Of a DNA stretch of 34,457 bases, positions 24,019 to 34,145 are shown piece by piece (the first letter of the stretch is position 1; every line of letters starts with the position of its first letter). The notes under the pieces are model-generated. The model was not told the DNA's origin and ran no database searches. It worked only from the letters and a program-made list of their open reading frames with translations. The DNA comes from Crocinitomicaceae bacterium (lineage in GTDB: Bacteria; Bacteroidota; Bacteroidia; Flavobacteriales_D; Crocinitomicaceae): assembly GCA_022448165.1 (NCBI GenBank), contig JAKVAS010000006.1:13707-48163 (forward strand), in the 5' to 3' direction. Position numbers and translations under genes: made by a program.

Positions 24019-24744
24019 ATGCATATAGGGCAAAATATAATTCACTTAGCATGTGTAGATTCTACTAACAATTATGCTGCCAATTGCTTAAAATCGGGTG
24101 ATTTGACGTCTGGCACAGTAATTTTGGCAGATGAACAGTTTGCAGGGAAGGGACAGCGAGGTGCTGAATGGTCTACACTGGCGGGGTTAAACCTAACTTT
24201 TAGCTTTTTTGTGGATAACGTCAATATGGCAGTGGCACGGCAATTTGACTGGTCGAAGATTGTTGCGTTAGGGATTCATCGTTTTTTAGAGAAGTTGGGA
24301 GTTGAGACATCTATAAAGTGGCCAAATGACATTTATTGTAACGATTCTAAAATTGCTGGAATTCTCATTGAAAATCAATTGAGTGGGAGTCTCATAAAGA
24401 GTTCCATAGTTGGGATAGGAATTAATGTTAATCAACAGGATTTTAAGGGGTTTAATGCCACAAGTTTATTTTTAGAAACAGGAACTACTTATCCGATTAA
24501 AGACGCATTGTTGTCATTTATAGACTCTATGAATGGAGTGTTTAAAGATGTTGTGCAGGGAGAGCTGAACGTAGAATTATCGTATTTAGATCAGCTATAT
24601 CGAAAGAACGAAATGCATCCATTTGAAGATAGTTCAGGACGTTTCTTTGGTGTAGTTCAGGGAGTTGCCCCTAACGGAAGACTTATTGTAAAGAAACAAT
24701 CAGAAATTGTGACATACGATCTTAAGGAAATACGCTTTTGCTAA
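24019..24744 (+). CDS. birA: Biotin-[acetyl-CoA carboxylase] ligase, monofunctional type
   Basis: 241 residues. The catalytic module is complete: DSTNNYA (about 14-20), the biotinyl-AMP loop FAGKGQRGAEW (about 41-51, variant of GRGRRG), KWPNDIYCNDSKIAGILIE (about 100-118), and VGIGINVNQ. The N-terminal winged-helix DNA-binding domain of E. coli BirA is absent, so this is a ligase without the repressor function. It attaches biotin to the carrier protein of acetyl-CoA carboxylase and other carboxylases. It is divergent from rsfS and convergent with the frameshifted SRPBCC gene; its stop codon TAA overlaps the TAG of that gene on the other strand. Confidence 0.95.
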   Translation: MHIGQNIIHLACVDSTNNYAANCLKSGDLTSGTVILADEQFAGKGQRGAEWSTLAGLNLTFSFFVDNVNMAVARQFDWSKIVALGIHRFLEKLGVETSIKWPNDIYCNDSKIAGILIENQLSGSLIKSSIVGIGINVNQQDFKGFNATSLFLETGTTYPIKDALLSFIDSMNGVFKDVVQGELNVELSYLDQLYRKNEMHPFEDSSGRFFGVVQGVAPNGRLIVKKQSEIVTYDLKEIRFC

Positions 24745-25132
24745 GAAAAGTGAGATTTAAGTTTTTGAGACATGTGATTAAAAAGTGCAGAAAGCGGTTT
24801 TTGGACCATCATTTTTAAAAATGCATTTACCTCTCCGTCAAAATGTATGTATCCTTCTGTTTCACTGTCTTTCTTAGTCATATTAATTGTTAACCGAAAG
24901 GAGATTTTTCACCTGACTTCATGAAGATTTTATCATGTCCATCTTCTCCATCCTGTATTAACGAAATAATAATACCTCCTTGAACCTTGAAAGAACATTC
25001 ATTCTCTGTTGCTTTAAAGTCGGATATTTTGTCTTGTGGCAGTAAATGAATGAGGTTATTCGAATCTTTAATGAATCGAAAAACTTCTTCTTGATTCGCT
25101 GTTACAAGTACTTTGTTACTATCAATAGTCAT
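24741..25132 (-). pseudogene. SRPBCC-family (START-like) gene interrupted by a one-base frameshift
   Basis: The first frame (25132-24890) gives 80 residues, MTIDSNKVLVTANQEEVFRF onward to GEKSPFG, then stops. In the next frame, from about 24896 to the TAG at 24743-24741, 51 more residues follow: RLTINMTKKDSETEGYIHF, then NAFLKMMVQKPLSALFNHM and a Lys-rich end. Joined, they give about 131 residues, the size I expect for the flavobacterial SRPBCC protein often found next to pyrE, and the patterns at the join continue (SPF-x-LTINM). One missing base between about 24893 and 24901 explains everything. The intact second half argues for a recent event or a sequencing/assembly error rather than old decay. 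Ligand and function are unknown. The gene starts 5 bases after the pyrE stop on the same strand. Confidence 0.85.
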
Positions 25133-25137
25133 GTGTT

Positions 25138-25779
25138 TTATTTTTTCCAGTTGTCAGGAGCAACTTTCCATTCCGCTAGAGAAGCAGCATCTTCACTTGA
25201 TACCAAACGAGACTCTTTTGCTGTTTCAATTAGGTGATCATAATCGGAAAGAGTCACATATGGGCAATTGGCATTTACGAAATTGTCTTGAGCAATCTTG
25301 AAACCATAGCTGAAAATAGCGACCAATCCTTTTACTTCTAACCCTGCTTCTCTTAAAGCATCAACAGCTTTTAAACTACTTCCGCCTGTAGAGATAAGGT
25401 CTTCAATAACAACAACTTTTTGACCTTTCTCAAAGTATCCTTCAATTTGATTCCCCATTCCGTGAGCTTTTGCCGAGCTTCTCACATAGATAAAAGGAAC
25501 GCCTAATTCTTCTGCTACTAACGCACCTTGAGCAATGCCACCGGTTGCAACACCTGCGATTACATCTGGTTTTCCATACGCATCAAGAATTGCTTCTGTA
25601 TACGCTTGTCTAATAAACGTACGGATTGTCGGGTATGAAAGCGTAACACGATTGTCACAGTAAATTGGAGATTTGATTCCAGATGCCCACGTGAATGGAT
25701 CATTTGGTTGCAACTTTACTGCTTTGATTTGTAGCAAAAATTCTGCTACTTTTAGGGCCTTATCGTCGTTTAAAATCAT
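25138..25779 (-). CDS. pyrE: Orotate phosphoribosyltransferase
   Basis: 213 residues, as expected. It shows FTWASGIKSPIYCDNR near the N-terminus, the flexible-loop region YVRSSAKAHGMGNQIEG, and the PRPP-binding motif VVVIEDLISTGGSS (about 121-134). It joins orotate to PRPP, giving OMP, in de novo pyrimidine synthesis. The ATG is only 8 bases from the divergent Nudix ATG, so its promoter must lie inside the Nudix coding region. A matching -33/-7 pair is present there and predicts a leader of only a few bases or none. The SRPBCC gene follows after 5 bases and is probably co-transcribed. Confidence 0.97.
   Translation of the reverse strand: MILNDDKALKVAEFLLQIKAVKLQPNDPFTWASGIKSPIYCDNRVTLSYPTIRTFIRQAYTEAILDAYGKPDVIAGVATGGIAQGALVAEELGVPFIYVRSSAKAHGMGNQIEGYFEKGQKVVVIEDLISTGGSSLKAVDALREAGLEVKGLVAIFSYGFKIAQDNFVNANCPYVTLSDYDHLIETAKESRLVSSEDAASLAEWKVAPDNWKK
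25723..25754 (+). promoter_or_regulatory. Candidate promoter of the Nudix gene, inside pyrE
   Basis: TTTG at 25723-25726, a 20-base spacer and TACTTTTA at 25747-25754 (one mismatch to TAnnTTTG) lie within the first 20 codons of the divergent pyrE. The predicted leader is about 28 bases. Confidence 0.35.
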
Positions 25780-25784
25780 GGGCG

Positions 25785-25814
25785 CAAATGTACAAAGTAT
25801 TTATTGATCACAAA
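25785..25814 (-). promoter_or_regulatory. Candidate pyrE promoter overlapping the Nudix start codon
   Basis: On the minus strand TTTG at 25814-25811, an 18-base spacer, and TACATTTG at 25792-25785, an exact TAnnTTTG match. The -7 box covers the Nudix ATG (25788-25790) and ends 5 bases before the pyrE ATG, so the transcript would be leaderless or nearly so. Confidence 0.55.
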
Positions 25815-26423
25815 CCAGTAATTTTCATGGATAAAAAAGAATTATCCACAGACTATCCTCAAATTAGAGCAAAAGAGATTGGTTCTCCGAATGAGTTATA
25901 TTCACAAATGGAGGGAGTTACGCTTGATAATCCTTTACAAGTAGGGTGTTCTGATCCTAAAGCTTCGTTCGAGAGAATATTTAAAAAAACAAAATTAATT
26001 GAAGCGGCCGGAGGTGTTGTGAAGCGAAAAAATGAGTTTCTGTTGATAAAACGTAAGGGATTGTGGGACATTCCGAAAGGGAAGATTGATAAAGGTGAAA
26101 CTCCTGAGGAAGCAGGAATTCGTGAAGTAATGGAGGAGTGTGGGATTAAAGGACATGAGATTAAAGATCAATTGGTTATTACATATCACACGATGAAGTT
26201 TCAAGGAAAAATTGCTTTGAAACGAACATATTGGTATATGATGAAGTATAAAGGACCGCGTGAAACAAAGCCTCAATTAAATGAAGGGATTACTAAAACC
26301 AAATGGATGAGCGAATCCTATATGCTTGCTATTCGCGGTAGAACTTATGGCTCTATTAACGAAGTACTAGATGTTTACAAGGAAAAATACGTTAAAAGGA
26401 AAGCTAAAAAAATGACTAAGTAA
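25788..26423 (+). CDS. Nudix hydrolase
   Basis: 211 residues. A unique N-terminal part of about 70 residues (MYKVFIDHKPVIFMDKKEL onward) precedes a Nudix domain with AAGGVVKRKNEFLLIKRKG and a full Nudix box, G-x5-E-x7-R-E-x2-E-E-x-G, at about residues 98-120 (GKIDKGETPEEAG, then REVMEECGI). The family hydrolyses nucleoside diphosphates linked to another group; the substrate cannot be told. A C-terminal basic tail, KEKYVKRKAKKMTK, is notable. I keep the first ATG because the MYKVF start is, as I recall, typical of the flavobacterial homologues beside pyrE. The gene converges on the SDR gene, with 14 bases between stops. Confidence 0.92.
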   Translation: MYKVFIDHKPVIFMDKKELSTDYPQIRAKEIGSPNELYSQMEGVTLDNPLQVGCSDPKASFERIFKKTKLIEAAGGVVKRKNEFLLIKRKGLWDIPKGKIDKGETPEEAGIREVMEECGIKGHEIKDQLVITYHTMKFQGKIALKRTYWYMMKYKGPRETKPQLNEGITKTKWMSESYMLAIRGRTYGSINEVLDVYKEKYVKRKAKKMTK

Positions 26424-33687: not shown

Positions 33688-34145
33688 TCTCCTTTAATTT
33701 TTGAAATAATAACATTTGTTGCTTCGTCCAATAGGTTAAAAACATCAATAAAACCTTGGTCTCCTCCGTAATATGGGTCTGGAACTTCTAGATCCATGGA
33801 TGGATTTGATTCGTTTAAGATCATTTTTACTTTAGACTCGTCTTCCTTATTCCTCGCTAATGAGAGAACATTAGAACGATTACTTTTATCCATTACATAG
33901 ATCACATCGAATGTATCGAAGTCGTTAACAATAAATTTACGAGAACGCAAATTGTCAATTGGACAACCCAATTCCTTAGCGGTCGCACGCATTCTTCTGT
34001 CTGGTGCTTCTCCCGCATGAAATCCAGAAGTTCCAGCAGAGTCAACTACAATTGATAGATCATTTTCAGATACTTTCTTTCTTAGTAAACCATCTGCCAA
34101 TGGAGATCGACAAATGTTACCAAGACAAACCATGAGTATTTTCAT
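33684..34145 (-). CDS. Low-molecular-weight protein-tyrosine phosphatase
   Basis: 153 residues, the normal size. The P-loop at the N-terminus is CLGNICRSPLADG, with nucleophile Cys7 and Arg13 (C-x5-R), and the general-acid loop is VPDPYYGGDQGF with Asp123. It removes phosphate from phosphotyrosine proteins, often tyrosine kinases of polysaccharide export, although no such kinase is in the window; arsenate reductase activity is a less likely alternative. It is the first gene of the pair with the rsmI-like gene (4-base overlap). A -7 box ends only 4 bases before the ATG. Confidence 0.94.
   Translation of the reverse strand: MKILMVCLGNICRSPLADGLLRKKVSENDLSIVVDSAGTSGFHAGEAPDRRMRATAKELGCPIDNLRSRKFIVNDFDTFDVIYVMDKSNRSNVLSLARNKEDESKVKMILNESNPSMDLEVPDPYYGGDQGFIDVFNLLDEATNVIISKIKGE

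Follow-up and report, generated by a model that had tools for sequence, protein, structure and literature searches.

The window, by which we mean the whole 34,457-nucleotide stretch of Crocinitomicaceae DNA that was analysed, contains two genes arranged head to head: pyrE, encoding orotate phosphoribosyltransferase (213 aa; 25138..25779, minus strand), and a gene encoding a Nudix hydrolase (211 aa, N-terminus MYKVFI; 25788..26423, plus strand). PyrE scores above the curated cut-off of TIGR00336 (138.7 bits vs. 106.8) and matches PF00156 (51.7 bits; cut-off 26.3), and the Nudix protein scores above the gathering cut-off of PF00293 (55.7 bits vs. 21.1). The divergent ATG codons of pyrE (25779-25777, minus strand) and the Nudix gene (25788-25790, plus strand) are 8 bases apart, in agreement with the original prediction.

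The nearest named relatives of this locus come from Fluviicola, Crocinitomicaceae and ‘Bacteroidota bacterium’ entries. None of the 14 NCBIfam matches of the Nudix protein exceeds its own cut-off, and since its best-scoring solved relatives are the Ap4A hydrolase 3i7u (E 3e-14) and Thermus Ndx1, a pyrimidine-specific role for this Nudix protein is without support here. Among its 115 best matches, 99 align from residue 1, 7 from residue 2, and 9 from residue 10 or beyond; the possibility that start codons in the window were called wrongly is not supported by the starts of homologues. Downstream of pyrE, an adjoining ORF on the same strand (24890..25132, minus strand), which has no family match and which we take to be SRPBCC-like, is probably part of the same transcript. 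This ORF ends at 24890 with an apparent continuation in another reading frame (the two together spanning 24737-25132, minus strand), which looks like a frameshift, either genuine or made by the assembly. No sigma-70 type promoters or terminators were found between 25500 and 26000.

On the pyrE strand, the sequence upstream of the gene reads TTTG-18-TACATTTG-CGCCC-ATG. The octamer TACATTTG (25792-25785, minus strand) corresponds to the Bacteroidota -7 consensus and matches the pattern TAHHTTTG; read on the plus strand it is CAA-ATG-TA and takes in the Nudix ATG together with bases 1 and 2 of the Tyr2 codon. A 5-nt spacer, CGCCC (25780..25784, minus strand), places a pyrimidine at -1 and separates the box from the pyrE ATG. 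The TTTG at a -33-like position (25814-25811, minus strand), 18 nt from the box, is weakly supported: it is present in the window, as the original prediction noted, but in only 13 of 90 overlapping loci. The -33 element is weak in Flavobacterium johnsoniae too (PMC6847099).

On its own, the pair of boxes barely exceeds chance genome-wide, with TTTG-N18-TANNTTTG occurring 34 times in the window's own assembly vs. 25 times for a reversed-pattern control. The pyrE box stands above chance because the -7 box and its spacing are conserved across genomes, and a chance origin is ruled out by that conservation. In a close set comprising the 30 best-scoring loci from a Nudix search (the window's own included), 29 have pyrE and the Nudix gene diverging from starts 7 or 8 bp apart; 28 of these 29 carry the exact box, and one (L015) has TACATTTA. 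The comparison of intergenic distances proposed with the original prediction thus yields a divergent pyrE and a 7-8 bp gap in 28 of 29 relatives. At L014, the Nudix gene has no pyrE in the 3.6 kb examined; its Tyr codon is kept and follows a TTG, and the gene may start further upstream.

A wider sample was drawn from pyrE regions of 166 Bacteroidia genomes, with pyrE starts called blind to the box, as the nearest in-frame ATG ahead of the profile anchor; 165 were scored. L222 was excluded from the count as it has no ATG (a GTG lies 3 nt past the box), and nine pyrE-matching genomes (G190, G284, G351, G367, G383, G396, G409, G421, G433) are not part of the sample. TANNTTTG occurs 4-5 nt before the pyrE ATG in 92 of 165 genomes (4 nt in 73, 5 nt in 19), rising by 8 to 100 of 165 when TTCG is also allowed (TANNTTYG). 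Three loci in which the ATG was set too far upstream (L185, L216, L255) are scored as misses in that 100/165; their pyrE probably starts at a GTG 4 nt past the box, and the position of GTG right after the box in these three and in L222 suggests leaderless GTG initiation. At least one genome with the box at 4-5 nt is found in 35 of 58 family codes. The eight variant boxes, TANNTTCG, belong to L128, L154, L179, L203, L238, L243, L258 and L281, some of them G+C-rich loci.

The same spacing is rare elsewhere. The background was counted in the window and 80 named loci, on other ORFs of at least 120 aa read from their leftmost ATG: 29 of 1043 carry TANNTTTG 4-5 nt ahead of the start. The count peaks at 4 nt with 24 ORFs, and distances of 3 nt and 6 nt give 1 and 4. 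For pyrE in the same loci the figure is 49 of 68, a proportion biased because these loci were found partly via the MYKVF motif; the class-wide draw is free of this bias. Within the genus of G140, which we take to be Flavobacterium from its N-termini, 369 of 398 genomes contain CATNNNNCAAATGTAYAAAG (317 of 333 of high quality; reversed control, 0); such a match alone does not prove a pyrE-Nudix pair, and the 9 class-sample loci of this genus are pyrE-Nudix pairs. Outside the class, 14 loci from the phylum (L165-L178) gave no Nudix match, and the ∼100 nt before their pyrE anchors contain no TANNTTYG except in L176 (at 35 nt, with a weak pyrE match). The claim that a -7 box covers the Nudix ATG is therefore borne out both by the letters of the window and by conservation at pyrE across Bacteroidia, and TACATTTG is very probably the real pyrE -7 box.

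A 5′ end mapped for pyrE in Flavobacterium psychrophilum (1806311; THC0290_1552) is listed with a sigma-54 motif in Table 2A of PMC9723704. Judging from this table entry, another pyrE promoter may exist, at least in that species, either as a second promoter or as a species-specific one. It could be argued that pyrE is mainly transcribed from such a promoter within the Nudix gene, as a leadered mRNA, with the -7 box secondary. We consider this quite improbable: the sigma-A box is present in the 369 of 398 genomes noted above, and in the 150 nt ahead of pyrE none of the nine class-sample loci of the G140 genus shows GG-N10-GC or a more complete sigma-54 pattern. Across the class sample, such patterns within 150 nt before pyrE number 44 sites in 35 of 165 loci, as raw counts.

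The position of the box predicts where the transcript begins. The -7 box of F. johnsoniae promoters occupies -12 to -5, and in probable promoters 4 or 5 nt separate it from the start (PMC6847099). Because the distance from box to ATG at pyrE equals this published spacing, pyrE mRNA is predicted to be leaderless, starting at 25779 (the A of the ATG) or, with 4-nt spacing, at 25780 (minus strand). The original prediction of a nearly leaderless mRNA is thereby sharpened, the conserved 4-5 nt spacing pointing to a fully leaderless one (0-1 nt).

A pyrimidine is preferred just before a purine start nucleotide. Where pyrE has its box at 4-5 nt, 91 of 100 genes carry one at -1, vs. 586 of 1023 other ORFs (Fisher p 1e-12); among other ORFs with a box at this distance, 23 of 29 do. 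As a mark it is only partly specific, since it is also present in 32 of the 47 pyrE genes that lack a box within 8 nt. Leaderlessness would not be universal, given that the box at 4-5 nt is absent in 65 of 165 genomes, in some of which it lies 6-36 nt from the ATG. The three f67 genomes, in which no Nudix gene was found, have spacings of 27-29 nt; by its N-terminus, we presume f67 to be Bacteroidaceae-like.

Most Bacteroidota mRNAs are leadered (PMC6847099, PMC7366714, PMC9723704). In F. psychrophilum, 5.5% of 890 mRNAs are leaderless (PMC9723704); in F. johnsoniae, 13% of probable promoters give leaders no longer than 10 nt (87% being given as above 10 nt; PMC6847099); and in Bacteroides thetaiotaomicron, 5′ UTRs under 10 nt account for 3.7% (PMC7366714).

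The predicted pyrE transcript of the window would begin AUGAUUUUAAAC (25779-25768, minus strand). A run of at least four T residues within the first 12 nt of pyrE is found in 29 of 100 genes with the box at 4-5 nt vs. 2 of 65 others, an excess that may be lineage-driven, as the run is encoded by the residues MI[LF].

Elsewhere in the window, a TANNTTTG box 4-5 nt before an ATG also occurs at 34145 and 20413 (both minus strand). Genes that recur with such a box are a low-molecular-weight phosphatase-like gene (MKILMVCLGNICRSP; the window, L040, L049 and L067), a CdsA-like gene (L043, L047, L057 and L060) and a Psd-like gene (the window and L065). These genes are candidates for a conserved leaderless set.

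As the box is also Nudix coding DNA, it might be a by-product of that coding, CAA and a conserved Tyr2 giving CAAATGTA while pyrE is transcribed from elsewhere. Met-Tyr does provide 5 of the 8 box bases, and L014 keeps Tyr though no pyrE was found beside its Nudix gene. Loci in which the two genes are further apart allow the two explanations to be separated. Of the 165 class-sample loci, 149 have a divergent Nudix match upstream of pyrE and 16 have none; in 33 of the 149, termed far, the aligned start-proximal Nudix residue lies at least 38 nt from the pyrE ATG, 89 are near, and 27 fall outside both groups (no anchor, a distance of 17-37 nt, or one of L185, L216 and L255). In near loci, the start-proximal residue is Tyr in 88 of 89, and the box covers it in 85 of 89. 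In far loci, the box keeps its 4-5 nt distance from pyrE in 20 of 33 and lies on the Nudix residue in none of the 33, from which it follows that Nudix coding does not explain the box. Tyr is kept in 8 of the 33 far loci (8 of 28 when five unalignable N-termini are left out), a remnant that would suit a by-product, but elsewhere it has given way to Ile, Phe, Lys, Val, Asn and others.

The box also survives in other codons when the Nudix gene starts at an ATG further upstream. This is so in 28 of 90 overlapping loci: there the two start codons share one palindromic CATG, and the box covers Gln/Arg-x-Tyr slightly further into the Nudix protein, mostly at codons 3-5; persistence of the box in these other codons shows that it is kept though the Nudix start codon differs. 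Together with the far loci, which largely rule it out, this makes the by-product explanation extremely improbable. These loci also bear on a result named beforehand as contrary to the original prediction, namely homologues in which one of the two starts lies elsewhere: most relatives do not contradict it, the Nudix start being upstream in 28 of 90, and on the pyrE side a minority of genomes has the ATG 6-36 nt from the box.

Tyr is strongly associated with overlap (Fisher p 5e-18, a value that takes no account of relatedness and should not stand by itself). Within families f4, f6, f57 and f71, near loci all have Tyr and far loci mostly do not; in f62, Tyr is found in near and far loci alike. 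To place these changes on a phylogeny, a tree of 120 rows was built from PyrE and Nudix core proteins with the Nudix N-terminus omitted, excluding the five far loci with unalignable N-termini (L135, L144, L164, L288, L293) and including the three GTG loci (L185, L216, L255) as near. On this tree, whose bootstrap had not settled and in which two long branches (L267 and L282) come together, overlap changes 16 times. Supported branches provide 9 contrasts; on average Tyr follows overlap in 6.0 of them, and in none does it go the opposite way, a modest result (sign test p from 0.0156 to 0.219, median 0.031). No such tendency is seen for the pyrE box (1.6 contrasts with, 1.2 against, 6.2 without difference). 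A tree of pyrE only has just 3 supported contrasts, and Tyr follows overlap in 2.4 of them on average. Comparison between genomes thus establishes the box, its spacing, its independence from the Nudix gene, and the association between Tyr and overlap; the pyrE promoter appears to hold the Nudix N-terminal residues in place. The Lys beside this Tyr is encoded by AAA in 65 of 65 near loci vs. 1005 of 1321 Lys codons elsewhere in the same genes, which may reflect a general A-richness of gene starts, since far loci also have AAA in 18 of 20.

We therefore regard one joint reading as highly likely, on the strength of these sequence comparisons: TACATTTG is the -7 element of a housekeeping (sigma-A type) pyrE promoter, pyrE mRNA is leaderless, and selection on the promoter holds the Nudix Tyr and Gln. 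The box would lie one box-to-start distance before the pyrE ATG (5 nt here, 4 nt in most box-bearing relatives), and transcription would begin at the A of the ATG or at the preceding base, yielding a leaderless mRNA. Because the Nudix gene begins there on the opposite strand, the box would be at the same time Nudix coding DNA, read as CAA-ATG-TAY (Met-Tyr) or, where the Nudix gene starts further upstream, as CAA/CGA-NNN-TAY (Gln/Arg-x-Tyr); promoter selection would consequently hold the start-proximal Tyr (and Gln). From this arrangement we infer the start site, leaderless translation and a polymerase that hinders Nudix transcription. The Nudix promoter would have to lie inside pyrE or beyond.

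For that promoter, the original prediction pointed to TTTG (25723-25726, plus strand), 20 nt, and then TACTTTTA (25747-25754, plus strand) as a -7 box inside pyrE. The letters are present as described, with TACTTTTA lacking the near-invariant final G, but conservation does not support a promoter: TANNTTTA occurs at this position in 8 of 89 overlapping loci, and exact TANNTTTG on the Nudix strand is never shared by more than 3 of 89 at one position, so that no conserved box is seen there. In the first 75 nt of pyrE, exact TAHHTTTG occurs 10 times on the Nudix strand against a mean of 7.1 in synonymous shuffles of 87 pyrE genes (∼15% of shuffles reach it), and the relaxed TAHHTTT[GA] occurs 40 times against 24.6, above all 200 shuffles, in a test that does not down-weight related sequences. 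The latter excess could hint at weak Nudix promoters.

These counts bear on the proposal that the shared region is a switch, polymerase at the pyrE promoter blocking Nudix transcription and vice versa, which would couple the two genes and, as the original prediction put it, could link pyrimidine synthesis to nucleotide clean-up. The geometry would allow this, as the stretch from the TTTG of the pyrE promoter to its start covers Nudix codons 1-9, through which any Nudix promoter would have to transcribe, and the excess of relaxed boxes (relatedness ignored) points the same way. Against it, exact boxes are close to expectation and there is no conserved Nudix promoter among the overlapping loci; nor is overlap essential, since the Nudix residue is at least 38 nt from the pyrE ATG in 33 of 149 divergent loci. 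A switch is possible on this evidence, although we think it rather unlikely. A more far-reaching version, in which a class-wide leaderless pyrE promoter dictated the first residues of the Nudix protein while pyrE initiation occludes the Nudix gene, with pyrimidine supply setting the output, seems improbable; pyrE initiation would then possibly be UTP-sensitive in some species, through the U run after the AUG (AUGAUUUU here).

The reading that we prefer, a leaderless pyrE promoter that constrains the Nudix N-terminus, can be set beside known systems. Divergent promoters of head-to-head gene pairs must overlap each other's transcribed regions, and pyrE and the Nudix gene conform to this; in contrast to such pairs in general, the pyrE promoter sequence is indicated to hold amino acids of the opposing protein. 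The pyrE promoter resembles Bacteroidota sigma-A promoters (TTTG / TANNTTTG, as in F. johnsoniae, PMC6847099) in its -7 consensus, in its predicted box-to-start spacing and perhaps in its weak -33 element, and differs from them generally in that its box lies inside the start codons of an opposing gene and 4-5 nt from the ATG in at least one genome of 35 of 58 family codes. As a leaderless mRNA, pyrE would join the known minority in Flavobacterium and Bacteroides, unlike other members in being one housekeeping gene, found so in many families and tied to a head-to-head neighbor. Leaderless mRNAs and overlapping divergent promoters are already known. A description of one sequence serving as both promoter and N-terminus was not found in a literature search covering few subscription journals, which makes the novelty provisional.

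The pyrE promoter and the prediction of leaderlessness are well supported by comparison across genomes. If the joint reading is correct, the pyrE-Nudix pair would be a clear natural case of a promoter on one strand constraining the protein encoded on the other, with the repeated changes of overlap (16 on the tree) serving as controls. pyrE would likewise be a deeply conserved candidate for a leaderless mRNA in a phylum whose mRNAs are without Shine-Dalgarno sites, which would make leaderless initiation testable in a laboratory Flavobacterium.
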